Source: Massilia aquatica (GTDB taxonomy: Bacteria > Pseudomonadota > Gammaproteobacteria > Burkholderiales > Burkholderiaceae_D). From it: a DNA stretch of 64,000 nucleotides. The position numbers were made by a program, and so were the translations under genes. Under the pieces are notes generated by a model that did not search any database, was not told the DNA's origin, and was given only the letters and a program-made list of their open reading frames with translations. How positions within the stretch are numbered: the first letter of the stretch is position 1; every line of letters begins with the position of its first letter. Positions 27,316-41,499 of the stretch are shown one piece after another. The DNA is taken from the NCBI RefSeq assembly GCF_011682045.1, contig NZ_VVIW01000007.1, positions 186,001 to 250,000 on the forward strand, in the 5' to 3' direction.

Positions 27316-27816
27316 ATGAACAGCACAACCTCCCCATCCAGTAACACCGAGCCCGCCTGCTACGAAGTACGGCGCTCCACCATCCACGGCAACGGCGTCT
27401 TTGCCACGCGCGACATCGAGCCGGGCGAGCAGATCGCCGAATACACGGGCGAGCGCATCACGTCCGACGAATCGGCGCTGCGCGCCGAAGCCGGCGGCGG
27501 GCCGGTCAACCACACGTTTTTCTTTTCGCTGGCCGACGGCATGGTCATCGACGGTGGCCGTGGCGGCAACGATTCGCGCTTCATCAACCACGCTTGCGAA
27601 CCGAATTGCGAAGCCCAGGAAGACGAGGGCAGGGTGTTCATCTACGCCCTGCACCCGATCATGCGCGACGAAGAACTCAAATACAACTACGCGCTGATCT
27701 ACGAAGAGCGGCACACGCCGGCTGTCAAAAAAGCGTTCGAGTGCCGCTGCGGCGCGCCGACCTGCACCGGCACCATGCTGGCGCCCAAAAAGCGCAAGCG
27801 CGCCAAGGCTGGCTGA
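27316..27816 (+). CDS. SET domain protein lysine methyltransferase
   Basis: 166 residues. SET motifs are in order: GNGVFATRDIEPGEQIAEYTGE near the N-terminus (residues ~25-46), the SAM/active-site motif RFINHACEPNC (88-98), then YALHPIMRDEELKYNY with the conserved Tyr. A post-SET zinc cluster follows: ECRCGAP with C143, C145 and C150 (CTGTM). A basic tail KKRKRAKAG ends the protein. This is a eukaryote-like SET protein. The substrate (ribosomal protein, nucleoid protein or host histone) is unknown; bacterial histone-like substrates are inference. It converges with the WG-repeat array, 31 nt apart. Confidence 0.92.
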   Translation: MNSTTSPSSNTEPACYEVRRSTIHGNGVFATRDIEPGEQIAEYTGERITSDESALRAEAGGGPVNHTFFFSLADGMVIDGGRGGNDSRFINHACEPNCEAQEDEGRVFIYALHPIMRDEELKYNYALIYEERHTPAVKKAFECRCGAPTCTGTMLAPKKRKRAKAG

Positions 27817-27847: not shown

Positions 27848-29773
27848 TCAACTGGCGGCCGTAGCCGCTGGTGCGTCGTCGTCATCTTCGTCATCTTCGT
27901 CATCGTCGTCATAGTCGTCATCGTCATAAGACGGATACGTCGGGACGCGCCCGCCATGGGCTGCCGCCAGCGTCTCTATCGAGGGCGAGCAGACCAGCCA
28001 GATGTTGTGCCACACGTCGCCGTCGCCATAGCCAGCTTGCGTGAAGAGCACGAGCCGCATCTGGTTTGACCCCGGCCGGGCCGCGTCAAGCCCGGCCAGC
28101 GGCGGGGTGATGGGGACGCCCCACGCCGTGATGTCGGGCGGAGCGGATTTGCCGGGATTGCGCGTTGACGGTCCGAGATGCTCCGTCAGGCGCGCCACGC
28201 AGCGTGCGTATGTGGCATCCATCACGGCGCCCCGCGTGGAAGCAAAAAATTCGTAAGCCGCGTGCTTGTGTTCGTCAAGGTACGAACGAAAGATGCGGCG
28301 CCGCGTGCGCAAGGACTTCGCCAACTGGTCGGCCGCACTGACGTTGGCCCCGTACTCGTTGCGGTCGCCGGGAAGCGTGCAGTGATCCTCCTCGTCCTCA
28401 TCTCCGCTTGCCGGTGCTTGCAGCGCCGCGTCGATATTGCACAGTTTGTTAGCGCTTGCGAGCACCATCGAGTCGGCCAGTCCGGCCAGGTCGCCGAGGT
28501 CGTGCAGGTCGATCAGCAGGGACTCGGGCGGGGCCGAAAAATACAGCGCCGGCGGCGCAATCGTGGAGTGGGATTGTCCGTGCCACAGCAACCGGCCCGC
28601 AGCGTCATACAGCGCCGGGCCGGCGCCGCCAGGGGCTGGTTCGGCACGCAGGCGCCAGGCCACACACGCATCGCGGTCGAGAAATGCGATGCTTGCGTCG
28701 CGCGCGAGGAAGGCAACCAGCGGGGTGTTCGCTTCCTGGGTTGCGATATCGTGGTAACGGCCCTGGGTCAGCGGTTCGAGCACGTCGGCCGGTGGCCGCG
28801 CAAAGCTGCCGTCGGCTCGGGCAATGCCCCACACCGGCGCCGCATCACTGTCCGTTTGGGCGGCCCTGGCGCAGGCGATTGCGAAACCATGCTCGTTGAA
28901 GTCGCCGCACCATAACAGGGGCGCGTCGAAGGCCAATTTCCCCTGCGCCGTCATGCAGGTGTGGGCCGATTCGATGGCGATCCCGCAGTGCATCGACTCC
29001 GACAGGCGGTTGAACGCCACGATCACCGGTGCGCCTGTGGTGTCGAGATAGCCAGCATCATTCCATCCGTGCTTGAAAAAGGCCAGGCCGTCGGCGTTGA
29101 AGTCGTCGATCCTGTCATAGCGCGGTTCCAGTACCCATGCGCCTTTGCGGTCGATGATGCCGAACCGCTTGCCGTCCTCGCTGGCCGGCGCCACGCCGTC
29201 GCGCGAAAACGGCTGTGCCGATGCAAAGCGCGGCGCAATCGCCCATGCGCCGGATCTGTCGATGTAGCCGACCGGGCCGGATGCGATGCGGGCCGCCGCC
29301 AGTCCGCCGGCGGTGAATGAACCGGCATTGGCGAAACTGTCGTCGAAGGCGAACTTGCCGCTGGTGTCGATATAGCGCCATCCGTCTGCGGCCGTCTGCA
29401 CCGCCGCCAGGCCATGCTGGAATGGCTCACCCTGCGCGTACTGCGGTTCTATCACGACCTTGCCGCGCACGTCCAGGTAGCCCCATTTCCCCTGGTCGCA
29501 AAAACACGCCAGGCCATCGGCGCTGAAGGTGCGCGCGTCGTCGAGCGTCGGCGCGACGACCCAGGCGCCTTGTGTGTCGATGTAGCCGCACATGCCGCCG
29601 CCTGCCATTGCTGCGGCGATCGCGCCACCCTGGCCGTCGCCGACGAATTCGCCAAAGACGTCGCCCAGGGCGGGAACGGGCACATGAACCTGACCGCCGT
29701 GGAGCAGCAGCAGTTCGGGCTCCAGGCCTTGTGGCGCAAAGTAGTTGCGGATCAGGGTGGGTTGGATTGTCAT
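27848..29773 (-). CDS. WG-repeat protein 5, short form with acidic C-terminus
   Basis: 641 residues, last gene of the five-gene minus-strand array, 12 nt after the previous stop. The N-terminus MTIQPTLIRNYFAP carries the paralogue-wide RNY motif with no signal peptide, so it is cytoplasmic. Residues ~55-330 hold about six WG repeats of ~45 residues (GYIDxxGxW...GLA pattern), which usually fold as a beta-propeller-like structure. A middle region (~330-480) shows LLIDLHDLGDLAGL. A shared alpha/beta module follows: RTRRRIFRSYLDEHKHAAYEF, then DPYAG-like spacing and DVWHNIWLVCSPSIETL. It ends in an Asp-run tail coded by GTC/ATC repeats. It lacks the helical-repeat C-terminus of the long paralogues. 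Function unknown. Confidence 0.85.
   Translation of the reverse strand: MTIQPTLIRNYFAPQGLEPELLLLHGGQVHVPVPALGDVFGEFVGDGQGGAIAAAMAGGGMCGYIDTQGAWVVAPTLDDARTFSADGLACFCDQGKWGYLDVRGKVVIEPQYAQGEPFQHGLAAVQTAADGWRYIDTSGKFAFDDSFANAGSFTAGGLAAARIASGPVGYIDRSGAWAIAPRFASAQPFSRDGVAPASEDGKRFGIIDRKGAWVLEPRYDRIDDFNADGLAFFKHGWNDAGYLDTTGAPVIVAFNRLSESMHCGIAIESAHTCMTAQGKLAFDAPLLWCGDFNEHGFAIACARAAQTDSDAAPVWGIARADGSFARPPADVLEPLTQGRYHDIATQEANTPLVAFLARDASIAFLDRDACVAWRLRAEPAPGGAGPALYDAAGRLLWHGQSHSTIAPPALYFSAPPESLLIDLHDLGDLAGLADSMVLASANKLCNIDAALQAPASGDEDEEDHCTLPGDRNEYGANVSAADQLAKSLRTRRRIFRSYLDEHKHAAYEFFASTRGAVMDATYARCVARLTEHLGPSTRNPGKSAPPDITAWGVPITPPLAGLDAARPGSNQMRLVLFTQAGYGDGDVWHNIWLVCSPSIETLAAAHGGRVPTYPSYDDDDYDDDDEDDEDDDDAPAATAAS
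27873..27928. repeat. GTC/ATC triplet microsatellite coding the acidic tail of WG-repeat protein 5
   Basis: Near-perfect GTC/ATC/TTC triplets on the + strand encode Asp and Glu runs on the minus strand. Slippage in threes would change linker length without breaking the frame. Confidence 0.7.
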
Positions 29774-29785
29774 CAGTATGTGTAG

Positions 29786-32700
29786 TCAGGTTGTTGTCAG
29801 GACGGCGCGCACGGCGCTTTGCAGCGCCACCGGAACATGGTCGATCGCCCAGTAGTGTTTGCTTACCGATGCGATGCACAGGGGGAGCGTGCGCAGCTCC
29901 TGCGGAACAAATTTGAGTTCGTAGTCGTGTCTCTGCACCGCTGCAAGGCAGAACGCTTCGCTCATCATGGCCACCGGTAGCTGCTCGAAACGCTTGTGTC
30001 CGTGGCTGAGAGCCAATTCGTAGAGCGCCGTCGTCATCAGGCGGCGTGGTACGAAGCGCACGGCGTCTGCATCGAGTTCGACGGCCAGGTCGACCATCGC
30101 CCGCGTGATGCGCCGTCCAGGAATTTTTGCCAGCATCTGCGGTTGCGTGGCCAGTTCGCGCAGCAGGGTCGCGTCGTCGGCCTGGCTGGCCGCTCCCTGC
30201 GCCAGCACGTGCAGCCAGGCGATGCTGGCGTTCGCCCCGAACTGCGGCGTGTAGTCGCTGCGCAGCGACAGCACCTTGGCCGCTTCCAGCGCGGCGCGCT
30301 GCACGTCACCCTTGAGGCGCCAGGCGCTGGCAAGCACGTAGTGCATGTGCACCGGCCGACTGGTGTTGCCGATCGCGAGCTGCGCAGCGGTGATCGCGCC
30401 GTCCGCATCGCCTGCGGAAAGGCGGTTCCAGGCGCGTAGGGCATGCCAGCGGCTGCCGCCGTCGGAGGCCCGGTCTGCGTCGCCGTCGATCAGACGATCG
30501 GCAACCGCCTCTTTTAGTTCATCGGGCACCCCGGAGAAGGCGTTGTCGTCTTTCAGCAACGCCTGCGCACACAGTTCTTCGGTCATCAATGTCGGCGGGA
30601 TGCGTGCCAGGAGCGTGGCGTCGCCCCGGCCGGCCATGAATCGGGCCACGCGCGGCGTGATCGCGGATGGATCGACGAAACGGATATTGTCAGCGTCCTT
30701 GGAAAGCGCGATTTCGACGATGTCTTCGTTGTGCAGCCGCCATGGCACATTGCGAATGTCGGCATCGTTGCAGACCGCGGTCAGACAGGTCTGCTGGTCG
30801 AGCAGGCAGCCCCACACGTGCTCTAGGCAGTCGCGGTGCAATCTGGTCGGAATGGTGGAGTTGCGCTTGTCGGCACGTAGCCAGCGGGCGTCGTCGGCAT
30901 ACAGCGAGCGTGCCAGGGCCAGCCCACCGGTGCTCATGACCACCGGTGGAATGCGTGATGCGGCCTTGGCGTTGCGCCGGATCTGCGCTTCCAGCCGGGC
31001 AGGGGTTTGCAGGCGTGGCGGCAGGAACCGGTAGGCGCGGATCTCGGATTCGATGAGGGCATCGGCGATGGCATCGTCGATCAGTTCCCCCGGAATGCCG
31101 ATGATGGCATCGGGCGAGGCGCTCACGCGCGCCACCCAGTCGATGCCGTCATCCGGCGCAGGATGGTCGTCGCCGCCGGGCGCCTCTACAGCGCGGCCGG
31201 TGAGGGCGGCGTCGAGCGTCTCTTTCGATGGTGCGCATACCAGCCAGATGTGGTTCCAGGCGTCGCCGTCGCCAGTATCGACGACCGAAGAGAGCCCCAG
31301 CCAGAGCTGGTTCGACTCCGGGCGCGCCGATTCGGGCTCCGCCAGCGCTTGCGCGAGCGTGATGCACCAGGCGGTGGCGTCTTCCGTAGCCGCTTCGCCA
31401 GCATAGTCCGGGTCGCGCTCCGGTGGGCCGTAATGCGCAGTCAGGATGGCGACAAAGCGGGCGCGCACCGCTTGCGCCATGACGATGCGTTCTTCGAATA
31501 GAAATGAATAGCGGCCATGTTCGTCTTCGTCCAGATAGGATCGGAAGATGCGGCGCCGCGAGCGCACCGCTTGCGCCACCTTGTCGTTCAGGCTGAGGCC
31601 ATCGTCTTCCTCCTCATGGTCGTCGTGGTCGTTGTTGTAGATGGCCTCGGGTGCGTATGTGCCGTTGTCGAAGGCGTCGAGCAGCGCACCGGCGTTGTGA
31701 AGTTTTTCCTCTGTCGCCTGCACGAGCGTGACGGCCAGCGCGGTCAGCGCATCGAAGCCTGGCAGTTCAGCGAGCAGGCTGTCCGGCGGCGCGGTAAAGA
31801 AACGCCGGGGCGATCGCAGGGCCGGGAAAGGTGTGCCTTGCCAGAGCTGGCTACCGGCGGCGTCGTACAGTGCCGCGTATGTGCCTTGCGGCCCGCTTTC
31901 GGTACGCAGGCGGTACACCACGCGCGCATCGCGGTCGAGCAGCACGACGCTGCGGTCGTGTTCCAGGAACGCGGCCAGCGCAGTGCCAGCTTCGCACGGA
32001 GCGATGTGCCGGCCGCGCACCGTGATTGGCTCGACCGCGCCCGCCGGCGGCGCCGCAAACGTGCCGTCCGCGCGCGCGATACCCCACACCGGGGCCGAGT
32101 GGCCGTCGGCGCTGCGCGCGACGGCGAAAGCGTGTTCGTTGAAGTCGTCGCACCAGTCGAGGGGAAGGTCAAATTCCAGCTTGCCTCGTGCGGTCATGCA
32201 GATGTAGTTCGAGTCAACCGCGATCCCGCATTGCATGTGCGCCGACGGACTGCGCATGTCGCGGATGACCATTACCCCGTTTGTGTCGAGATAACCGGCA
32301 TAGTCGTAGCTCTCGCTGTAAAAGGCCAGCGTGTCGTCGTTGAACTCCCTGATACTTTCGTAACACGGTTCGAGCACCCATTTGCCTTGCCGGTCGATCA
32401 GTCCATACTGTCTCTTTTTTTCGGCGGCCGGGGCCACGCCCGCGTCGGAAAAAGCGAGCGACATCAGGAAGCGCGGCGCTATCGCCCATGCGCCCGTGCG
32501 GTCGATGTAGCCGTATTTGCTGGACGAGCCGCGCGCGGGCGCCAGACCGACGGCGCTGAATGAACCGGCCATAGTGAAGCTGGCGTCGAACGCAAAGCCG
32601 CCGCTGCGGTCGATGTAGCGCCATTTGCCGCCCTCGACCTCGACAACCGCGAGCCCATGCCGGAACGGCTCGACCCGCGTGAACCGGGCCGGCACGACCA

Positions 32701-33013
32701 CCTTGCCATCGCGCCCACGGTAACCCCACAAGCCGCCTTCGCAAAAATGCGAAAGGCCTTCGCTGAACGGAAAGGCGTATTCCAGGGCCGGCTCGAGCAC
32801 CCAGCCGCCGCTGGCGTTCACATAGCCGTACTTGCCGTTGACAGCCATCGCCGCCGCAATCGCGCCGCCGGCGACGTCGTCGATAAATCGGCCGAACACC
32901 TGCGCCAGGCCGGGAGAGGAGGTATACACCTTTGCCTTGTGGAGAATGAGTAGTTCGTTCCAGGCCGCTGGCGGGGACATGTAGTTTCTGATGAGGACAG
33001 GCTGGATAAACAT
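29786..33013 (-). CDS. WG-repeat protein 4, long form with C-terminal helical repeats
   Basis: 1075 residues from the ATG at 33013 (MFIQPVLIRNYM); the extra 47 residues of the longer frame lie in the neighbour's coding region and read as Arg-rich noise. Order: N-terminal RNYMSP motif, about six WG repeats (~60-335), the IFRSYLDEDEHGRYSF module (~525-640) with GDAWNHIWLVCAPSKETLD, a linker, then from ~690 about ten 30-residue helical repeats of the type RFVPRRLMTTALYELALS, like DUF4116. A TPR-like segment (MHYVLASAWRLKGD) lies inside that array. It starts 7 nt after the previous stop. No enzyme motif is recognised; a scaffold or binding role is inference. Confidence 0.85.
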   Translation of the reverse strand: MFIQPVLIRNYMSPPAAWNELLILHKAKVYTSSPGLAQVFGRFIDDVAGGAIAAAMAVNGKYGYVNASGGWVLEPALEYAFPFSEGLSHFCEGGLWGYRGRDGKVVVPARFTRVEPFRHGLAVVEVEGGKWRYIDRSGGFAFDASFTMAGSFSAVGLAPARGSSSKYGYIDRTGAWAIAPRFLMSLAFSDAGVAPAAEKKRQYGLIDRQGKWVLEPCYESIREFNDDTLAFYSESYDYAGYLDTNGVMVIRDMRSPSAHMQCGIAVDSNYICMTARGKLEFDLPLDWCDDFNEHAFAVARSADGHSAPVWGIARADGTFAAPPAGAVEPITVRGRHIAPCEAGTALAAFLEHDRSVVLLDRDARVVYRLRTESGPQGTYAALYDAAGSQLWQGTPFPALRSPRRFFTAPPDSLLAELPGFDALTALAVTLVQATEEKLHNAGALLDAFDNGTYAPEAIYNNDHDDHEEEDDGLSLNDKVAQAVRSRRRIFRSYLDEDEHGRYSFLFEERIVMAQAVRARFVAILTAHYGPPERDPDYAGEAATEDATAWCITLAQALAEPESARPESNQLWLGLSSVVDTGDGDAWNHIWLVCAPSKETLDAALTGRAVEAPGGDDHPAPDDGIDWVARVSASPDAIIGIPGELIDDAIADALIESEIRAYRFLPPRLQTPARLEAQIRRNAKAASRIPPVVMSTGGLALARSLYADDARWLRADKRNSTIPTRLHRDCLEHVWGCLLDQQTCLTAVCNDADIRNVPWRLHNEDIVEIALSKDADNIRFVDPSAITPRVARFMAGRGDATLLARIPPTLMTEELCAQALLKDDNAFSGVPDELKEAVADRLIDGDADRASDGGSRWHALRAWNRLSAGDADGAITAAQLAIGNTSRPVHMHYVLASAWRLKGDVQRAALEAAKVLSLRSDYTPQFGANASIAWLHVLAQGAASQADDATLLRELATQPQMLAKIPGRRITRAMVDLAVELDADAVRFVPRRLMTTALYELALSHGHKRFEQLPVAMMSEAFCLAAVQRHDYELKFVPQELRTLPLCIASVSKHYWAIDHVPVALQSAVRAVLTTT

Positions 33014-33020
33014 GGTGTGC

Positions 33021-34835
33021 TCAGGTGAGATCGAAAGGGGATGGCTGCTGTCCGGCCAGCGCCGCATTGAACGCCGTCTGGCTGGGAACGCACACCAGCC
33101 AGATATGCTGCCACGCGTCGCCGTCGCCGTTCTGGTGGACGCCCGCGATGCCAAGCCACAGCGCGCCGACGCGCCATGCCAGGGTGTCGCGGTCGGGCTC
33201 GGCCCCGGCGTAGTCGGGATCGGACACGGGCGCGCCGAAATGCGCGCTCAGTCGTGCCACGCAGCGCTCGAGCATCCGCAACACCATCGGATAACGGTCG
33301 TCGCCGAGGAACTCATAACGCATCAGTTCAGCCTCGCCGAGGTACATGCGGAAAATGCGGCGCCGGGTGCGTACCAGCCTTGCCAGCCGGCCTTCGTCGT
33401 CGGTGTCGCTGTACCCGTTGAAGCAGTCATCGGGGCCCGACTTGTACGCGTACGCGTCGTCGGTTTCCTTCTCGCCGTCGTGCGCCGCCTGTTTCAGGGC
33501 GTCGATGTTGAGCAGCTTGGCCCGGGTTGCCGCCAGCATCGTCTCGGCGTAGGCAGGTAGTTCGTCGACGTGGCCCACTTCAGCCAGGAATGCCTCGGGC
33601 GGCGCGGAAAAGTAGGGCTGCGGTGTGTGCAGTCCCGCGCACGGTGCATCCTGCCATAGCTGGCGCCCGGTCTCGTCGTACAGCGCCACGCGCTCAACGC
33701 CATCCTCCGATTCGGCGCGCAGCCGGAAGGCCAGGCGTGCATCGCGGTCGAGCAGGGCAATGCTGCCATCGCGCGCGAGAAAGGCGATCAGCGGGGTGCC
33801 CGGTTCGGGGTAGCCGATATCGATATCCCAGTCCGGCAGCGGTTCGAGCACGTCGGCGGGCACGACGGCGAAGGTGCCGTCGAGGCGTGCAATGCCCCAC
33901 ACCGGCCCGCGCTCCTGATCGACGGCGCGGGCGAGCGCAAAGCCGTGGGTGTTGAAGTCGCCGGCCCAGTCGAACGCCTCGCCGAATTCGCGCACATCAT
34001 CCGCGCTCCGGTACCACATCTGCGCCGCGCGCTCTACGGCGACGCCGTGGCGCATGGTGCGCGACAGGTCGTAGCAGTCGGGAATGACGGGAATGCCGGC
34101 GGCATCGAGATAGTCCTCCTGGTTGTCATCAGCCTTGAACCATGCAAGGCCGTCGTCGTTGAAGGCGTCTATCTCGTCGTAGCAAGGCGCAAGCACCCAT
34201 TCGCCCTGCTGGTTGATGATGCCGAAACGCCTGCCGTTCTCGCTGGCGGGCGCCACGCCGTGCCTTGAAAATGGCGCCGGAAGCTCGAAGCGTGGGGCGA
34301 TGGCCCATGCGCCGCTGCGGTCGATGTAGCCGCATTTGTAGGTTCCACCTCGCGCCACGGCCAGGCCGATTGCGGTAAATGGTCCGGCATGGCGCAAAAA
34401 GCCGTCGAACGTGAACTGTCCGCTGGTGTCGATATAGCGCCATTTGCGCTCGCCGATCATGACTGCCGCCAGGCCGAAACTGAATGCCTCGGCTTTTTCG
34501 TATTGAGCGGCGACGGCCACGTCGCCCTTGAGGTTGCGGTAACCCCACCGGTCCTGGTCGCGGAACAGCGAGAGGCCGTCCGGGCCGAAAGGCTGGGCGT
34601 CTTGCAGGGTCGGTGCGACGACCCATTCGCCACGCGCGTTCAGGTAGCCACGGCCGCCGTCGGCAGCCATTGCGGCCGCAATGGCGCCGCCGGCGCGATC
34701 GTCGACAAATGGCCCGTTGACGTAATACAGGGCAGGGCGGCTTTGGTAAGCCCTGCCATCGTGAACCAGCAGCAGCTCGGACGGTTTGCCGTCTGGCTGC
34801 ATCGGGTTTCGGATCAGGACAGGATGCGCGCTCAT
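33021..34835 (-). CDS. WG-repeat protein 3, short form
   Basis: 604 residues, ATG at 34835, preceded by AGGAGG inside the end of the upstream gene and 1 nt after its stop region: tight coupling. N-terminus MSAHPVLIRNPMQPDG (RNP replaces RNY). WG repeats ~60-330 are conserved, e.g. GYLNARGEWVVAPTLQDAQPF. The shared module RRRIFRMYLGEAELMRYEF...DAWQHIWLVCVPSQ follows, but ~15 residues usually present between LAW and the NxxWLGL strand are missing. The helical-repeat C-terminus is absent, so the protein ends ~20 residues after the module. Without a signal peptide it should be cytoplasmic. Confidence 0.85.
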   Translation of the reverse strand: MSAHPVLIRNPMQPDGKPSELLLVHDGRAYQSRPALYYVNGPFVDDRAGGAIAAAMAADGGRGYLNARGEWVVAPTLQDAQPFGPDGLSLFRDQDRWGYRNLKGDVAVAAQYEKAEAFSFGLAAVMIGERKWRYIDTSGQFTFDGFLRHAGPFTAIGLAVARGGTYKCGYIDRSGAWAIAPRFELPAPFSRHGVAPASENGRRFGIINQQGEWVLAPCYDEIDAFNDDGLAWFKADDNQEDYLDAAGIPVIPDCYDLSRTMRHGVAVERAAQMWYRSADDVREFGEAFDWAGDFNTHGFALARAVDQERGPVWGIARLDGTFAVVPADVLEPLPDWDIDIGYPEPGTPLIAFLARDGSIALLDRDARLAFRLRAESEDGVERVALYDETGRQLWQDAPCAGLHTPQPYFSAPPEAFLAEVGHVDELPAYAETMLAATRAKLLNIDALKQAAHDGEKETDDAYAYKSGPDDCFNGYSDTDDEGRLARLVRTRRRIFRMYLGEAELMRYEFLGDDRYPMVLRMLERCVARLSAHFGAPVSDPDYAGAEPDRDTLAWRVGALWLGIAGVHQNGDGDAWQHIWLVCVPSQTAFNAALAGQQPSPFDLT

Positions 34836-34836
34836 C

Positions 34837-37800
34837 TCAGGACCTCCTCACGCCGGTGGCGCGCGCGACTTCGTCGACCAGCGCTGCCGGAACATAGTCA
34901 AGCGCCGTTCTGCTGTCGCGCACGGCGGCGATGCATAGCGCGAGCGTGCGCCGGGCTTCTGGAACGTAGTAGAGTCCGAAGCTCGAATGCCGCACCGCTG
35001 CCAGGCAAAAGGCTTCGTCCTTGAACGCGGCGGGGATCTGCTTGAACTGCTTGACTTTACGCGCCAGCGCGAGGGCGTAGAGCGGTTGCGTCATCAGCCG
35101 CTTGGGGACGAACGCCACGGTTGCCGGATCCGCGCCAACCGCAAGGTCGACCATCTCGCGGGTGACGCGCCAGCGCGGCATGCCAGCCAGCGCGCCAGGA
35201 TTGGCCGCCACCTGGGCCAGCAGGGTGGCGTCATCGAGATGGTTAACCGCCCGCTTGGCGAGGGCGCGCAGCCAGTATGTGCTGGCGTTACGGTCGAACT
35301 CCTCGCTGTAGTCGTTATCGAGCGACAGTACGAGAAACGCTTCGCGCGCCGCCGCGTCATGCTCGCCGGTCTGCCGGAAAGCGTCTGCCAGTATGTAGTG
35401 GACGTCCGCCGAGTCGGGAATCGCTTGCAACGCCAGGGTAGCGTCGGCAATGGCGCCCTGGTAGTCCTTCTGCCACGACTTTATCCAGGCACGCAGTTTG
35501 TGCCATTTGCTGAAATTGCGATATTCGCTTAGCGCGCTGGATGAACCCAAGTCCTCGTCGATCAGGCGCGTGGCGGCAGCCTCGCGCACTGCTTCCGGTA
35601 CATCGGCCACGATGTACGGGTCTGTTGCCAGGGCGGCGGCACATATCTCGGCCGTGCGCAGGGCAGGCGCCATGCTGCGCAGCGCTCTCGCTTCGGTGCG
35701 CACCGCGAGCAAACACATCTCCGTCGTCAGCAGCGCGGCAGGGATGTATCGCACGGCATCGGTCTCGGGATCGGACAGTGCCCGCCGCACCAGGCCGGGT
35801 GTGATATCGCTCTTGTTGAGCCAACGGATATCGCCGATATCGTTATCCAGCGCGATCGCCTCCAGTTCAGGGGTGCGCAGCCAGCGCGGCATCGACGCCA
35901 GGCTGGCGTGCTCCCTGACCGCCCGGAGGCACTGCTCGTAATCGAGCAGGCAGCCCCACACCTCGCGAATGCTGTAGTCGTTCAGGTATTCCGGCACTTT
36001 GGACGCCGCGGCATCGGCCTCTTGCCAGTCTGTGTCGGTGGCGTACAGCGAGCGCGCCAGCGCCAATCCGGCGGCAGTCATGCAGGCGGGCGGAATCCGC
36101 ACCGCAGTGTAGACATCCTTGCGGATCAACGATTCCAGGCGCTCCGGTGTATGCCATCGTGCGGGCAGGTATAGCAGTGCGCCGCTGCCATGCGCCAGCG
36201 CGGTATCGCAGAGGATGTCGTCCATCAGTTCGGCGGGGACTTCTTCGATGGCATAGTCGCGTCGTTTTACAGCAGCGGTCCATTGCTGGTAAGGGGTGCC
36301 TGCGGGGACCTCATCTTCCTGTTCGTTGTCATCGTCGTCATCGTCGTCGTCGTGATCGCTATCGTCATCGTCATCGTCCGTGTCTTCCTGCTGCGCGATC
36401 CCGACCGCGGACGCCGTTTCCAATGTTTCGAGGCTCGGACCGCAATCCATCCAGATGTCGAACCATGCATCGGCATCGTCACTGCCATTATCGACATAGA
36501 TGGCGATCCACAAGCGGTTGGCGTCGTCCGTCGAACTGTGCGGCGTCGCCAGGGCGTGCCGCAGCTGCACCGGCCACCCGATCGAATCCGTGCGCTCGCC
36601 GGCCCCGGCCAGGTCGGGATCGGTGTCGCCGGGGCCGAAGCGTTCTTCCAGAGCGGCGATGATGCGCGCGTGCGCCACGCCACTGGCACGTGCGCGCACC
36701 GGGCCAAGAAAATCGTATTCCGTGTTGTGCGGTTCGCTGAGGTAGACACGCACCAGCCGGCACGACCTGCGCGTGCGCGCCGCCATCCAGTGTGCGTCGC
36801 CCGGACGTTCCACGAACGAATGCAGCTCGCGTTCTACCTCGTCGAGGAGGGATGCCGCATACCCTGGAATCTGTTCGAAGGCGTCCACCGGGACCAGGAA
36901 TGATTCCGGCGGCAGCACAAAAAAGGGTGGATAACCAGCCAGGGCGTCACACGGCGCACCGCGCCAGAGCACCCGGCCGGCGTGGTCGGACAAGACTGCG
37001 CAGGCGCCGCCAGCGCAGTCTTCGCGTTGCCAGGCCAAGGCCGTGCGGGCTTCGCTGTCGAGCAAGTAGATTCGCCCGTCGCGCATGAGAAAAGGCGTCA
37101 ACGGCGTGCCGCATTCGGAATCGGGGATGAAGCCATCGAGGGTGAGTGGTTCGAGCGCGTCCTCCGGCGCCGGCACGAAGCGCCCGTCGCGATGCGCGAA
37201 GCCCCACACCGCTGCGACAGGCTGGGCGTTTGCCCCGGGCGCAAAGTCGGACGTGCGTGCCAGTGCGTAGCCGCTGGCGTCGAATTTGCGCACCCAGCGC
37301 AATTCGACCGGAAACGTCATGGGCCCGTCGGCATTGACGAAGCCACGATCGCCGCTTTTCGCGACGCCGGCGCGCATTTTGTGCGACACCCATTGCCCGC
37401 TGATGACCTTGACCCCGCGCGCATCGAGGTAACCTTGGGCTTCCTCGCCGCTACCGGAGCCGGAGAAAAATGCGTAGCCGTCGTCATTGAACGGCCGGAT
37501 GAATCCGCGCGATGCGGGCATGATCCAGTGGCCGCCGGTATCGATCAGCCCCCATTTTTCCTGAATGGCGCCGGCAGGGGCAGTGCCGCCGGCCGAGAAG
37601 GCCCATGCGCGGTAAAACTGCGGTGCGATCGCCCACTGGCCCTGCCGGTCGATGTAGCCCCATGGCTGGTCTTCCCCCGGCGCGGCCGCCGCCAGGCCGC
37701 AGGCGCTGAACTTGCCCACATGGGCGAAGACGCCATCGAACGCGAACCGCCCCTGGCAGTCGATGTAGCGCCAATGACCTTCGGATACCTTGACCGCCGC

Positions 37801-38166
37801 CAGGCCGTGCGAGAACCCTTGCGCCTCGGCGTACTGCGCCGCGATGACGCGCTCGCCCGCCAGGTTGACGAAGCCCCACAGACCAGCGTCGCAGAAGCGC
37901 GCCAGCTCGTTGTCGAGGAAGCTGCGGGCGTTGTCCAGGGTCGGCGCGACGATCCACTCGGCCCGTGTATTGATGTAGCCCCACATGCCGTTAACAGCCC
38001 GGGCTGCGGCGATGCCGCCACCCTGGCCGTCATCGGTGAATTCGCCGATCACATCGCCGATGCCGGGGGCGGGCACGTATATTCGACCCGCGTCGAGCAC
38101 CAGCAGGTCCGGCTCCTGGTTCGCCGGTACAAAGTAGTTTCGGATGAACGCTGCGGTGATCGTCAT
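34837..38166 (-). CDS. WG-repeat protein 2, long form with Asp-rich linker and helical repeats
   Basis: 1109 residues, ATG at 38166 overlapping the previous stop as ATGA. MTITAAFIRNYFVPANQEPD at the N-terminus matches the shared leader motif. About six WG repeats (~60-330), module with RVYLSEPHNTEYDFLG and DAWFDIWMDCGPSLETLE, then an almost pure Asp linker (~620-645) encoded by GTC/ATC triplet repeats at 36326-36380. The rest (~655-1109) is an array of helical repeats (LRYVP/RYIPAALLTTEMCLLAVRTEA type) with a TPR-like piece near ADVHYILADAFRQTGE, ending YYVPEARRTLALCIAAVRD. It is the closest paralogue of the frameshifted first gene and supplies the template for its repair. Confidence 0.87.
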   Translation of the reverse strand: MTITAAFIRNYFVPANQEPDLLVLDAGRIYVPAPGIGDVIGEFTDDGQGGGIAAARAVNGMWGYINTRAEWIVAPTLDNARSFLDNELARFCDAGLWGFVNLAGERVIAAQYAEAQGFSHGLAAVKVSEGHWRYIDCQGRFAFDGVFAHVGKFSACGLAAAAPGEDQPWGYIDRQGQWAIAPQFYRAWAFSAGGTAPAGAIQEKWGLIDTGGHWIMPASRGFIRPFNDDGYAFFSGSGSGEEAQGYLDARGVKVISGQWVSHKMRAGVAKSGDRGFVNADGPMTFPVELRWVRKFDASGYALARTSDFAPGANAQPVAAVWGFAHRDGRFVPAPEDALEPLTLDGFIPDSECGTPLTPFLMRDGRIYLLDSEARTALAWQREDCAGGACAVLSDHAGRVLWRGAPCDALAGYPPFFVLPPESFLVPVDAFEQIPGYAASLLDEVERELHSFVERPGDAHWMAARTRRSCRLVRVYLSEPHNTEYDFLGPVRARASGVAHARIIAALEERFGPGDTDPDLAGAGERTDSIGWPVQLRHALATPHSSTDDANRLWIAIYVDNGSDDADAWFDIWMDCGPSLETLETASAVGIAQQEDTDDDDDDSDHDDDDDDDDNEQEDEVPAGTPYQQWTAAVKRRDYAIEEVPAELMDDILCDTALAHGSGALLYLPARWHTPERLESLIRKDVYTAVRIPPACMTAAGLALARSLYATDTDWQEADAAASKVPEYLNDYSIREVWGCLLDYEQCLRAVREHASLASMPRWLRTPELEAIALDNDIGDIRWLNKSDITPGLVRRALSDPETDAVRYIPAALLTTEMCLLAVRTEARALRSMAPALRTAEICAAALATDPYIVADVPEAVREAAATRLIDEDLGSSSALSEYRNFSKWHKLRAWIKSWQKDYQGAIADATLALQAIPDSADVHYILADAFRQTGEHDAAAREAFLVLSLDNDYSEEFDRNASTYWLRALAKRAVNHLDDATLLAQVAANPGALAGMPRWRVTREMVDLAVGADPATVAFVPKRLMTQPLYALALARKVKQFKQIPAAFKDEAFCLAAVRHSSFGLYYVPEARRTLALCIAAVRDSRTALDYVPAALVDEVARATGVRRS
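36326..36380. repeat. GTC/ATC triplet microsatellite coding the Asp linker of WG-repeat protein 2
   Basis: Runs of GTC and ATC encode an almost unbroken Asp stretch between the alpha/beta module and the helical repeats. The gene stays in frame. Confidence 0.7.
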
Positions 38167-40184
38167 GCTTTTCGGCTCTCATGTGGTGGCAAGGCGGCGC
38201 GGACTTCGTCGAGCAGGGCTGCCGGAACATGATCGAGCGCCGTGCTGCTGTGGCGTACTGCGGCGACGCATAGCGCGAGTGTGCGCAGGGATTGAGGGAC
38301 CAGGAAGAGACCGAAGCTCAAGCTTTTTACCGCGCACAGACAGAGACTTTCGGTCATGAACGCCGTGGGCACCTGCACGAAGCGCTTGATGTCCTGGGTG
38401 AGCGCCAGTTCGTAGAGCGCGGACGTCATCAGGCGCTTGGGGACGAAGGCGACGCTCGCCGCATCGGCGCCGACCGCAAGGTCGACCATCTCGCGCGTTA
38501 CGCGCCAGCGTGGTATGTTGGCCAGGCCGCCCGGATTGGCTGCCAGCTGCATTAGCAAGGTGGCGTCGTCGGTCTCGTCGATCGCCCTTTTTGCCAGCGC
38601 GCGCAGCCAGCCGATGGAGGCGTCTTCATTGAACTGCATGCGGTACTGGCTGTCGAGTGACAGCACCAGAACGGCTTCGCGCATGGCGGCGTCATGCTCG
38701 CCGATCTCGTCGAGCGCGTGAGCGAGGATGTAGTGGGGGTGCGCCGATTCCGGCATTGCCTGCACCGCCAGCGTGGCGTCGGCGATGGCGCCATGGTAAT
38801 CGTTGTTCCATAGCCTGGCCCAGGCGCGCAGATGATGCCACCTGCTGGCGGTGCGTCCGTCGCGCCGCGTCTCGAGCGACTCCAGATCGGTGTCGATCAG
38901 GAGCGTCACTGTCGCTTCGCGAATGGCGGTGGGTACGTCGGGAAGGTAGTTCTCGTTCTGCTCCAGGGCGATGGCGCAGACCTCGGGTGTACGCAGGGCG
39001 GGCGCCATGATGCGCAGCGTTGAAGGATCGGTACGCACCGCCAACTGCCAGAGTTCCGCCGTCATCACGGCTGCGGGAATGTAGCTCACCACGTTGGCGT
39101 AGCGACGGGACACCGCGTGCCGTGCCATATCGGCAGTGATGCCGCTCTTTTCAATCCAGCGGATATTGCCGATATCTTTACCCAATGCGAGCGCGATGAG
39201 TTCGGGGCTGTGCAGCCAGCGCGGAATATACGCCAGGCTCACGCGCGCTTTGACCGCGCGCAGGCAAATGGCGGGATCGAGCAGGCATCCCCACACCTTG
39301 CGCATGGTGTAGTCGTTCATCACGTCCGGGACCGTCGATAACGCGGCGTCGGCGCGTTGCCATGCGGCGTTGGTGGAGTACAGCGAGCGCGCCAGGGCCA
39401 GTCCGGCGGCGGTCATGCACCAGGGCGGCACGGCCATTGCGCTATCGACGCTGTTGCCGATGACGCCAGCGAGGCGGTCGGCCGTCTGCCAGTGCGCGGG
39501 CAGATGGGTCAGCGCATCACAATTCTGTTCCAGGGCGGCGTCGCACAAGGCGTCATCCATGAGTTCAGCCGGAACGTCTTCGATCCTGTGGTAGCTGCGG
39601 CTTACTTCGGCCATCCACTCGTCGTAGGGAGACAGGGCGGCAGCCTGCTGTTCGTCCTCTCCCTCTTGCTCTTCATCTTCCTCTTCATCTTCCTCTTCAT
39701 CTTCTTCGCCCGGACCGGCTTCCTGCGCGGCGATGCCGACCGCCGACGCCACTTCGAGTGTTTCGATGCTCGCGCCGCAGTCCATCCAGACGTCGAACCA
39801 GGCATCGCCATCGTCGTCGCCTTCGCTGCAGTAAACAGCAATCCACATCCTGTTCGAGTCTTGCCTCGCCCCCTGCGGCGCCGCCAGCGGTTGGCGCAGT
39901 TGCACCGGCCATGCCAGCGACACTCTGCGATAAGCGATGCGCGCCATGTCGGGATCCGGATCCGCGGTGCCGAAGCGTTGCTCCAGTGCGGTGACGATGC
40001 CGCTGTGCGCCAGGCTGCTATCGCCCGCGCGGTACGAGAGGAGGAAGTCGTAGTGCGTGTTGTGCGGCTCGCTGACGTAGACGCGCGCCACGCGGCGAGA
40101 GATGCGCGTCTGTTTTTGCGCTGCCGGTACATCGTCCTCGCCGCCCGCCAGCGCATGCAGCTTGCGCTCTACCTCCTCGAGCAT
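38163..40184 (-). CDS. WG-repeat protein 1, C-terminal fragment after a frameshift
   Basis: 673 residues from an internal ATG at 40184 (MLEEVERKLHALAGG), continuing the gene interrupted near 40200. It contains the shared module (RRVARVYVSEPHNTHYDFL, then DAWFDVWMDCGASIETLE), a Glu-rich linker (EEDEEEDEEEDEEQ) encoded by CTT/CCT/CAT repeats at 39669-39708, and the helical-repeat array ending FGLFLVPQSLRTLALCVAAVRH. It has no WG repeats of its own and no ribosome site of note, so independent expression is doubtful. Together with the N-terminal fragment and one base removed it would make a 1111-residue protein, matching the 1109-residue neighbour. It overlaps the next gene by 4 nt. Confidence 0.8.
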   Translation of the reverse strand: MLEEVERKLHALAGGEDDVPAAQKQTRISRRVARVYVSEPHNTHYDFLLSYRAGDSSLAHSGIVTALEQRFGTADPDPDMARIAYRRVSLAWPVQLRQPLAAPQGARQDSNRMWIAVYCSEGDDDGDAWFDVWMDCGASIETLEVASAVGIAAQEAGPGEEDEEEDEEEDEEQEGEDEQQAAALSPYDEWMAEVSRSYHRIEDVPAELMDDALCDAALEQNCDALTHLPAHWQTADRLAGVIGNSVDSAMAVPPWCMTAAGLALARSLYSTNAAWQRADAALSTVPDVMNDYTMRKVWGCLLDPAICLRAVKARVSLAYIPRWLHSPELIALALGKDIGNIRWIEKSGITADMARHAVSRRYANVVSYIPAAVMTAELWQLAVRTDPSTLRIMAPALRTPEVCAIALEQNENYLPDVPTAIREATVTLLIDTDLESLETRRDGRTASRWHHLRAWARLWNNDYHGAIADATLAVQAMPESAHPHYILAHALDEIGEHDAAMREAVLVLSLDSQYRMQFNEDASIGWLRALAKRAIDETDDATLLMQLAANPGGLANIPRWRVTREMVDLAVGADAASVAFVPKRLMTSALYELALTQDIKRFVQVPTAFMTESLCLCAVKSLSFGLFLVPQSLRTLALCVAAVRHSSTALDHVPAALLDEVRAALPPHESRKA
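39669..39708. repeat. CTTCAT/CTTCCT microsatellite coding the Glu linker of WG-repeat protein 1
   Basis: Tandem CTTCAT and CTTCCT units encode the Glu/Asp linker at the same position as in WG-repeat protein 2, but the codon composition differs, so the tracts expanded independently. Confidence 0.7.
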
Positions 40185-41499
40185 GGAGATGGCCAGGTCG
40201 GGTTACCTGTTCGAAGGCGTCGCAGCCTTCCAGGAAGGATTCCGGCGGCGCATTGAAGAAGGGTGCCGGGATTACCAGTGCGTCGGCAGGCGCCGCGTGC
40301 CAGAGCGGCCGTCCGGCATGGTCGTGCAGGATCGCTCGCATGCCGCCGGCGCACTGCTCGCGCCGCCAGATGAAGGTCGTGCGCGCTTCGCCGTCGAACA
40401 GGTGGATTTCTCCATCGCACATGAGGAACGGTGTCAGCGGCGTGCCCGATTCGTTTTCGGGAATCCAGCCGTCGCTCGTAAGCGGTTCCAACGCATTCGG
40501 CGGCACCGGGACGAAGCGGCCGTCGCGGTGCGCGAAGCCCCACACTGGCTCGGCGGGCACCGCACCGGGACCCGGCGCAAAATCGGAGCTGCGCACGAGA
40601 GCGTAGCCGCTGTCGTCGAAGGGGCGTACCCAGCTCAGATTGACCGGGAACGTCAATGACCCGTCGGCGGTGATGAAGTTCCGGTCGCCGTTGAGCGCGA
40701 CGCCGGCGTGCATCTCTTCCGATACGAACCTGCCGGTGATGACCTTGAACCCGTGCGCGTCGAGGTAGCCCTCGGCTTCGTCGTCCGAATCGCGGTCGCG
40801 GAAATAGGCGTAGCCGTTGTCGTTGAACGGGTAGATAAAGTTGAAGGACGCGGGCACGATCCACTCGCCGCTGGTATCGATCAGCCCCCATTCATCCTCG
40901 TCGGCGCTGGCCGGAGCGACGCCGCTGGCTGTAAATGGCCAGGCGCGGTAAAACTGCGCGTCGATCGCCCACCGCCCTTGCCGGTCGATGTAACCCCACG
41001 GCTGGTCTTCGTCCTGCTTTACCGCCGCCAGGCCAAGCGCATCGAACTCGCAAGCACCACAAAAACTGCCGTCGAAGGCAAACTGGCCGTGTTGGTCGAT
41101 GTAGCGCCACTCGTCGTCCGTCACCTTGACCGCCGCCAGGCCGTTGGAAAACCCTTCCGCCTCCGCGTACTGCGCCGCGATGACGCGCTCGCCAATCAGA
41201 TTGACGTAGCCCCACCGGCCGCCTTCGCAGAAACGCGCCAGGCCGTCGGCGCTGAAAGCGCGCGCGTGCTCCATGCCGGGACCGGCCAGCCACGCGCCGC
41301 CGGCGTCGATGTAGCCGGCCTGACCATCGAGCGTGTACGCCGCAGCGATCATGCCGCCCCGGCCATCGTTCGTAAAATGGCCGACCTGCAGTAACGGCGT
41401 GACCGGCGCGATGACGTGGCCATCGGCCACCAGCAGCAGTTCCGCATCGGCGCCATCATGATGGAAGTAGTTTCGGACGAGGAGGGGCGTTGTCGGCAT
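40018..41499 (-). CDS. WG-repeat protein 1, N-terminal fragment (frameshifted)
   Basis: First gene of the array. The annotated frame gives 493 residues, but only the first ~435 are real: the RNYF leader motif, about six WG repeats (GYIDAGGAW, WGYVNLIGERVIAAQYAEAEGF, and so on) and the middle region to CDAFEQVT. After that the frame reads Arg/Ala noise and stops at 40018, because one extra base shifts it near 40200. The continuing frame is the fragment at 38163-40184. The ATG at 41499 has a weak ribosome site and follows a promoter candidate at 41532-41561 by only ~30 nt. If the shift is real, the product lacks the module and helical array. A sequencing error in a G-run is equally possible. 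Confidence 0.8.
   Translation of the reverse strand: MPTTPLLVRNYFHHDGADAELLLVADGHVIAPVTPLLQVGHFTNDGRGGMIAAAYTLDGQAGYIDAGGAWLAGPGMEHARAFSADGLARFCEGGRWGYVNLIGERVIAAQYAEAEGFSNGLAAVKVTDDEWRYIDQHGQFAFDGSFCGACEFDALGLAAVKQDEDQPWGYIDRQGRWAIDAQFYRAWPFTASGVAPASADEDEWGLIDTSGEWIVPASFNFIYPFNDNGYAYFRDRDSDDEAEGYLDAHGFKVITGRFVSEEMHAGVALNGDRNFITADGSLTFPVNLSWVRPFDDSGYALVRSSDFAPGPGAVPAEPVWGFAHRDGRFVPVPPNALEPLTSDGWIPENESGTPLTPFLMCDGEIHLFDGEARTTFIWRREQCAGGMRAILHDHAGRPLWHAAPADALVIPAPFFNAPPESFLEGCDAFEQVTRPGHLHARGGRAQAACAGGRRGRCTGSAKTDAHLSPRGARLRQRAAQHALRLPPLVPRGR
40195..40210 (-). other. Single-base frameshift site in WG-repeat gene 1
   Basis: The + strand shows GGTCGGGTTACC, a three-G run at 40200-40202. Deleting one G joins CDAFEQVT to DLAISMLEEVERKL, which aligns residue for residue with AFEQIPGYAASLLDEVEREL of WG-repeat protein 2. 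The exact base is uncertain within a few positions. Confidence 0.8.

Follow-up and report, generated by a model that had tools for sequence, protein, structure and literature searches.

A tandem array of WG-repeat propeller genes with variable copy number at one site in Massilia

The subject of this analysis is a minus-strand row of five homologous genes, A1 to A5, placed head to tail between positions 27848 and 41499 of a 64,000-nucleotide stretch of Massilia aquatica DNA (contig NZ_VVIW01000007.1, positions 186,001 to 250,000; hereafter the window). Four of the genes are intact and one is frameshifted. Our reading, to which we give a probability of about one half, is that the array encodes stand-alone binding proteins and that its tandem copies evolve by birth and death, the binding itself being inferred. 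The genes have a common domain order (read from one model and from alignments), occupy a fixed insertion site and vary in copy number; one loss has left a scar, two copies are broken, the family is under purifying selection, and the window alleles are older than their flanks. The proteins look more like interchangeable binders than like set components of a single machine, and they are apparently non-enzymatic. Many bacteria have annotated WG-repeat proteins, and we found no functional study of one in the open-access literature searched under WG-repeat, PF14903 and DUF4116. To that extent the description of the operon as apparently undescribed, made in an earlier sequence-only reading of the window, stands, although PF14903 and DUF4116 are themselves known Pfam families.

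Architecture of the array proteins

The intact genes encode proteins of 604 to 1109 residues: A1 (27848-29773, 641 residues), A2 (29786-33013, 1075 residues), A3 (33021-34835, 604 residues) and A4 (34837-38166, 1109 residues). The remaining gene, A5, consists of two open reading frames (ORFs) in different frames, a 5' piece of 493 residues (40018-41499) and a 3' piece of 673 residues (38163-40184), and as these match A4 in consecutive pieces (60% and 57% identity, respectively) we take them as one gene with a frameshift near position 40200. The 5' piece holds WG repeats followed by about 60 out-of-frame residues, and the 3' piece holds the solenoid and most of the alpha/beta module described below. 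Intergenic distances along the array are 12, 7, 1 and -4 nucleotides. Thus, the five head-to-tail homologues with gaps of -4 to +12 that had been described from sequence are confirmed in layout and spacing but not in number of intact genes, the 5'-most being the frameshifted pair. The R-N-Y/P start and the GGxIAAA stretch said to be common to the set were read in all five genes. However, the module ending given for all of them as WLVC/WMDC-x-PSxETL is present, as W(L/M)xC-x-PSxETL, in A1, A2 and A4, its place being taken by PSQTAF in A3 and by ASIETL in A5.

The WG repeats proposed earlier were recovered as PF14903 (WG_beta_rep) in five of the six ORFs, the exception being the A5 3' piece, with three to five significant stretches in each (E 8.9e-29 to 2.9e-41; 99.6-139.6 bits against a curated cut-off of 25.6). 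The AlphaFold2 model of A4, the sole protein modelled whole (mean pLDDT 85), places a WG beta-propeller at about residues 1-405, an alpha/beta module at about 420-596, an acidic gap at 596-622 and an alpha-solenoid at 625-1109. The solenoid occurs in three of the five genes, modelled in A4 and placed by alignment in A2 and A5. It is absent from A1, which ends in an acidic tail after the module, and from A3, so that the paralogues do vary in length and in possession of a C-terminal helical array, as had been noticed. The helical region of A2 lies barely above the curated cut-off for DUF4116 (PF13475; 25.5 against 24.9 bits) and an Undibacterium homologue reaches 23.4 bits, whereas A4 and the A5 3' piece have no DUF4116 match at E<=1; a TPR signal is found below the Pfam threshold in A2, A4 and the A5 3' piece. 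The alpha/beta module has no clear family and no clear match in sequence or among PDB folds. A GDGD motif was observed in 10 of 15 aligned rows of the module (window positions 33111-33131 in A3, and their equivalents); the A4 model would place it near the tip between the module's last two long strands, where A4 itself has a variant.

NCBIfam returned nothing above cut-off among the six array ORFs. In the window proteins no N-terminal hydrophobic segment was found, and internal peaks were marginal (1.62 for both A2 and the A5 3' piece). The earlier statement that no enzymatic motif, signal peptide or neighbouring partner explains the proteins therefore holds as far as Pfam, NCBIfam, PADLOC, hydrophobicity and the flanking genes were consulted. 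In the mechanism that we favour, each gene would provide a WG beta-propeller head and an alpha/beta module, optionally followed by an acidic linker and an alpha-solenoid arm. Propeller and solenoid would bind other proteins in the cytoplasm, every paralogue having its own partner, and selection would act on partner recognition rather than on a fixed stoichiometric assembly. The set would be kept and exchanged for that reason, its members being gained, exchanged and lost.

Copy number and history at one site

The array lies between a convergent SET-domain gene (PF00856, E 3e-23; 27316-27816, plus strand) and a divergent peptidase S46 gene (PF10459; 41668-43815, plus strand), which are conserved flanks and not members of the array. 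This site was read in 13 of 17 genomes of the genus (all except G004, G011, G013 and G014). Between the two flanks the window has five copies (one broken), M. frigida three (one broken), G016 three, G002 and M. rubra one each, and M. mucilaginosa and M. atriviolacea none, giving a series of 5, 3, 3, 1, 1, 0 and 0 across seven close genomes. The broken M. frigida copy is its third array gene, with an in-frame stop (L067:16570-16660), and the G016 copy is open there. The empty site of M. mucilaginosa retains the conserved upstream block, a start codon and about a dozen decayed codons, which indicates that an array was lost there; the M. atriviolacea site retains nothing of it. Apart from the five array-bearing genomes, the eight genus genomes read had no array genes at the site by tblastn, and in six of these the SET gene lies, by alignment ends, within about 400 nucleotides of the S46 gene, being distant or not found in the other two. 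The small SET-domain gene was seen at the array site in 11 of the 13 genomes. SET-domain proteins are mostly of eukaryotic type.

In a propeller tree of 27 rows, the A2 copies of different species group together, as do the A3 copies; A4, A5 and the M. rubra A4 are joined, and the window A1 is not sister to the relatives' third gene. M. frigida and G016 both have counterparts of A3 and A2 in unchanged order, and G002 has a counterpart of A3 alone. Of the two guesses made from sequence, a multi-subunit or an allelic set, the allelic one is the better half. The other, an obligate multi-subunit scaffold built of five paralogues, we consider improbable. It would account for the operon-like array with one promoter-like site on its strand, for long and short paralogues side by side, and for A3 and A2 keeping their order in M. 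frigida and G016. However, four of the seven genomes have one copy or none at the same site, family genes elsewhere are solitary, and A5 is broken. An obligate five-part complex is unlikely given a range of zero to five copies at one site and given that no neighbour was seen by eye to recur outside the shared Massilia sites, and a row that lengthens, shortens or is missing altogether from one close species to the next argues for interchangeable binders rather than fixed machine parts. The promoter-like site itself (41561-41532, minus strand, upstream of A5, the first gene; 10 of 12 matches) fits the single visible promoter reported before, but it is weak, since a scan of the whole 14 kb on both strands gave 2 sites against 2.7 expected in shuffled sequence. 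Furthermore, the upstream block conserved between species includes its second hexamer and not its first, which is a gap in three of the five array-bearing genomes.

The family is patchy beyond this site. Within the genus, 7 of 17 genomes carry it at E<=1e-10 (window included), and the S46 peptidases of these seven are 96-100% identical to that of the window, the next best being 88%. At the level of the taxonomic family, at least 14 of 392 genomes, again including the window's, have a match at E<=1e-15, which in four is confined to a short WG stretch. This search scored two candidates per genome and the alpha/beta searches seven to eight, so that the counts are lower bounds. Named carriers are M. 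frigida, M. atriviolacea, M. mucilaginosa, M. rubra, Undibacterium umbellatum, Paracidovorax wautersii and two Acidovorax metagenome-assembled genomes. A profile of the alpha/beta module matched at least 3 of 399 genomes in the order, at least 2 of 398 in the phylum and at least 1 of 369 in the class, the window genome being counted each time; the profile used for phylum and class contained the two other order matches, and the single non-window match in the phylum is therefore not independent.

Nine relative loci were collected, all but L075 entering the alignments, and the neighbouring genes in relatives were labelled by eye. Outside this Massilia clade the family genes read are solitary, and outside the shared Massilia sites no recurring neighbour was noticed by eye, L050-L052, L106 and L107 being short stretches. 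Two further sites were recognized: one, with LysR-type or metallo-beta-lactamase-like neighbours, holds one gene in each of four genomes and a cluster in the window genome, and the other, with a hydantoinase-like neighbour, holds family genes in two genomes. That cluster, on contig C24, is a second one in the same genome and comprises three genes and, at its end, a remnant of a fourth (L021:10991-11347). All nine matches of the alpha/beta profile in the window genome fall within array genes, C24 genes or the remnant. The scattering of single genes in relatives, which the earlier reading had held would count against it, is half borne out: where relatives have a lone copy, it lies at the array site or at one of two other fixed sites. 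Relatives share the site of the five-gene array but not its copy number.

Substitution rates and the case for function

Rates were estimated as simple pairwise NG86 values of synonymous divergence (dS) and of the ratio of nonsynonymous to synonymous divergence (omega). The window A1 did not enter the comparison of array with flanks, since its place in the tree is not that of an orthologue of the third gene in the relatives, and for the RND flank of M. frigida the comparison covered 256 residues. Between the window and its relatives, dS is 0.51-0.91 in all six array pairs against 0.20-0.39 in all 16 flank pairs, and omega is 0.29-0.34 against 0.04-0.18. Among M. frigida, G016 and G002, array dS (0.13-0.26, 4 pairs) is not raised relative to flank dS (0.16-0.37, 12 pairs). 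On these rates the window array is best described as an old haplotype, which would have come about through exchange or through sorting of ancient duplicates. All 19 family-gene comparisons gave omega between 0.20 and 0.53, so that the genes are under constraint, though a looser one than the flanks. This constraint, together with the long open frames, speaks against a neutral expansion of decaying, functionless repeat genes, a possibility that the broken copies, the remnant and the patchy distribution would fit but that we hold to be improbable.

A somewhat more plausible alternative, although still an unlikely one, is that the array is an immunity, antitoxin or phage-sensing set in which each paralogue recognizes a particular hostile protein and neutralizes it. 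Tandem paralogues at a fixed site, turnover of copy number, old window alleles and decaying copies all suit such a role, being traits typical of these loci. However, the proteins, at 600-1100 residues, are large for immunity proteins, and none of the six array ORFs matches a PADLOC model of anti-phage defence at E<=1. Neither a toxin nor a defence gene is present among the six genes flanking the array that were typed by Pfam (an AcrB-type RND pump, an outer-membrane efflux protein (OEP), SET, peptidase S46, an NMN transporter and AAA_28), and no toxin was noticed in the relatives' flanks, which were inspected by eye and not scanned. The natural copy-number series at one site makes function testable by deletion and by comparison of sister species.

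Likeness to known proteins and cellular location

In the structural comparison that had been proposed for these proteins, A4 gave 14 Foldseek matches at E<=0.001. Twelve of them (best E 6e-7) belong to IFT-A, IFT-B, COPI or nuclear-pore assemblies, the other two being a partner of a tRNA methyltransferase and a chain of the spliceosome; TM-scores for all 14 are only 0.09-0.13 by query length. In the accessible text of a 2010 screen, this domain order is reported only in eukaryotes and PVC bacteria (PMC2799638), and A4 has the order screened for, an N-terminal propeller followed by stacked pairs of alpha-helices. It differs from those membrane-coat proteins in its inserted module (about 420-596) and acidic gap, in having short relatives that lack the solenoid, in retrieving no coat protein by sequence, and in its betaproteobacterial host. 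A propeller-then-solenoid protein in a betaproteobacterium, with an extra module and low TM-scores, is consequently not a clean counter-example to that screen.

Typical coats, as we understand them, have no other domain between propeller and solenoid. We regard it as very improbable that the array proteins self-assemble into a membrane-coat-like lattice on the inner membrane. The 12 coat-type fold matches and the C-terminal hydrophobic segments of several relatives would agree with such a lattice; against it stand the low TM-scores, the two matches that are not coats, the module and acidic linker that separate propeller from solenoid, the solenoid-free A1 and A3, and the TPR proteins, with no coat among them, that A4 retrieves by sequence. 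A wider form of the idea is equally improbable: a betaproteobacterial clade would have convergently evolved a cytoplasmic or membrane-apposed lattice of coat-like proteins, with the paralogues as interchangeable tiles and with relatives tethered to the membrane by their C-terminal segments. If true, the propeller-then-solenoid order would no longer be confined to eukaryotes and PVC bacteria. As it stands, the likeness of this order to membrane coats is one of architecture only.

Other likenesses are to known families. The five array genes share with PF14903 proteins WG repeats far above the curated cut-off, and differ in that a modelled propeller is joined to an unnamed alpha/beta module, in some with a solenoid, and in forming tandem paralogues. 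A possible likeness to the alpha-solenoid proteins of DUF4116 lies in the narrow match of A2 and in giant-virus DUF4116 proteins, which take ranks 1, 2 and 4 among the viral fold matches (TM-scores near 0.12), but A4 and the A5 3' piece have sub-threshold TPR signals in place of that domain. The family offers a confident fold together with an unnamed domain that, in the samples searched here, turned up only in Burkholderiales. WG repeats also occur in PA14_16330 of P. aeruginosa, for which the accessible part of the report describes a lipoprotein signal peptide (PMC8855297), unlike the window proteins.

Clear C-terminal hydrophobic segments occur in the Undibacterium, G240 and Paracidovorax homologues (peaks 2.0-2.5) and a marginal one in an Acidovorax homologue (1.65). 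Non-Massilia homologues at L071:9983-13975, L073:9983-12448, L051:37-3945 and L106:160-2877 have C-terminal hydrophobic blocks alike in pattern by eye, which suggests tail-anchored versions. A distant homologue in G662 (L107:82-2016) has seven WG stretches and, by eye, a signal-peptide-like N-terminus. As these segments differ, the WG head may act in different compartments in different species.

Finally, contig C22 of the window genome carries other large genes (L022:6551-16638 and L023:3487-6753), three of them in tandem, whose proteins have an N-terminus that is strand-rich by eye and a helical region, with TPR repeats in three of four. The L023 protein matches the A4 solenoid by BLASTP at E 5e-11 and 23% identity, a kind of match that repeats can inflate; other heads may thus be joined to the same type of solenoid.
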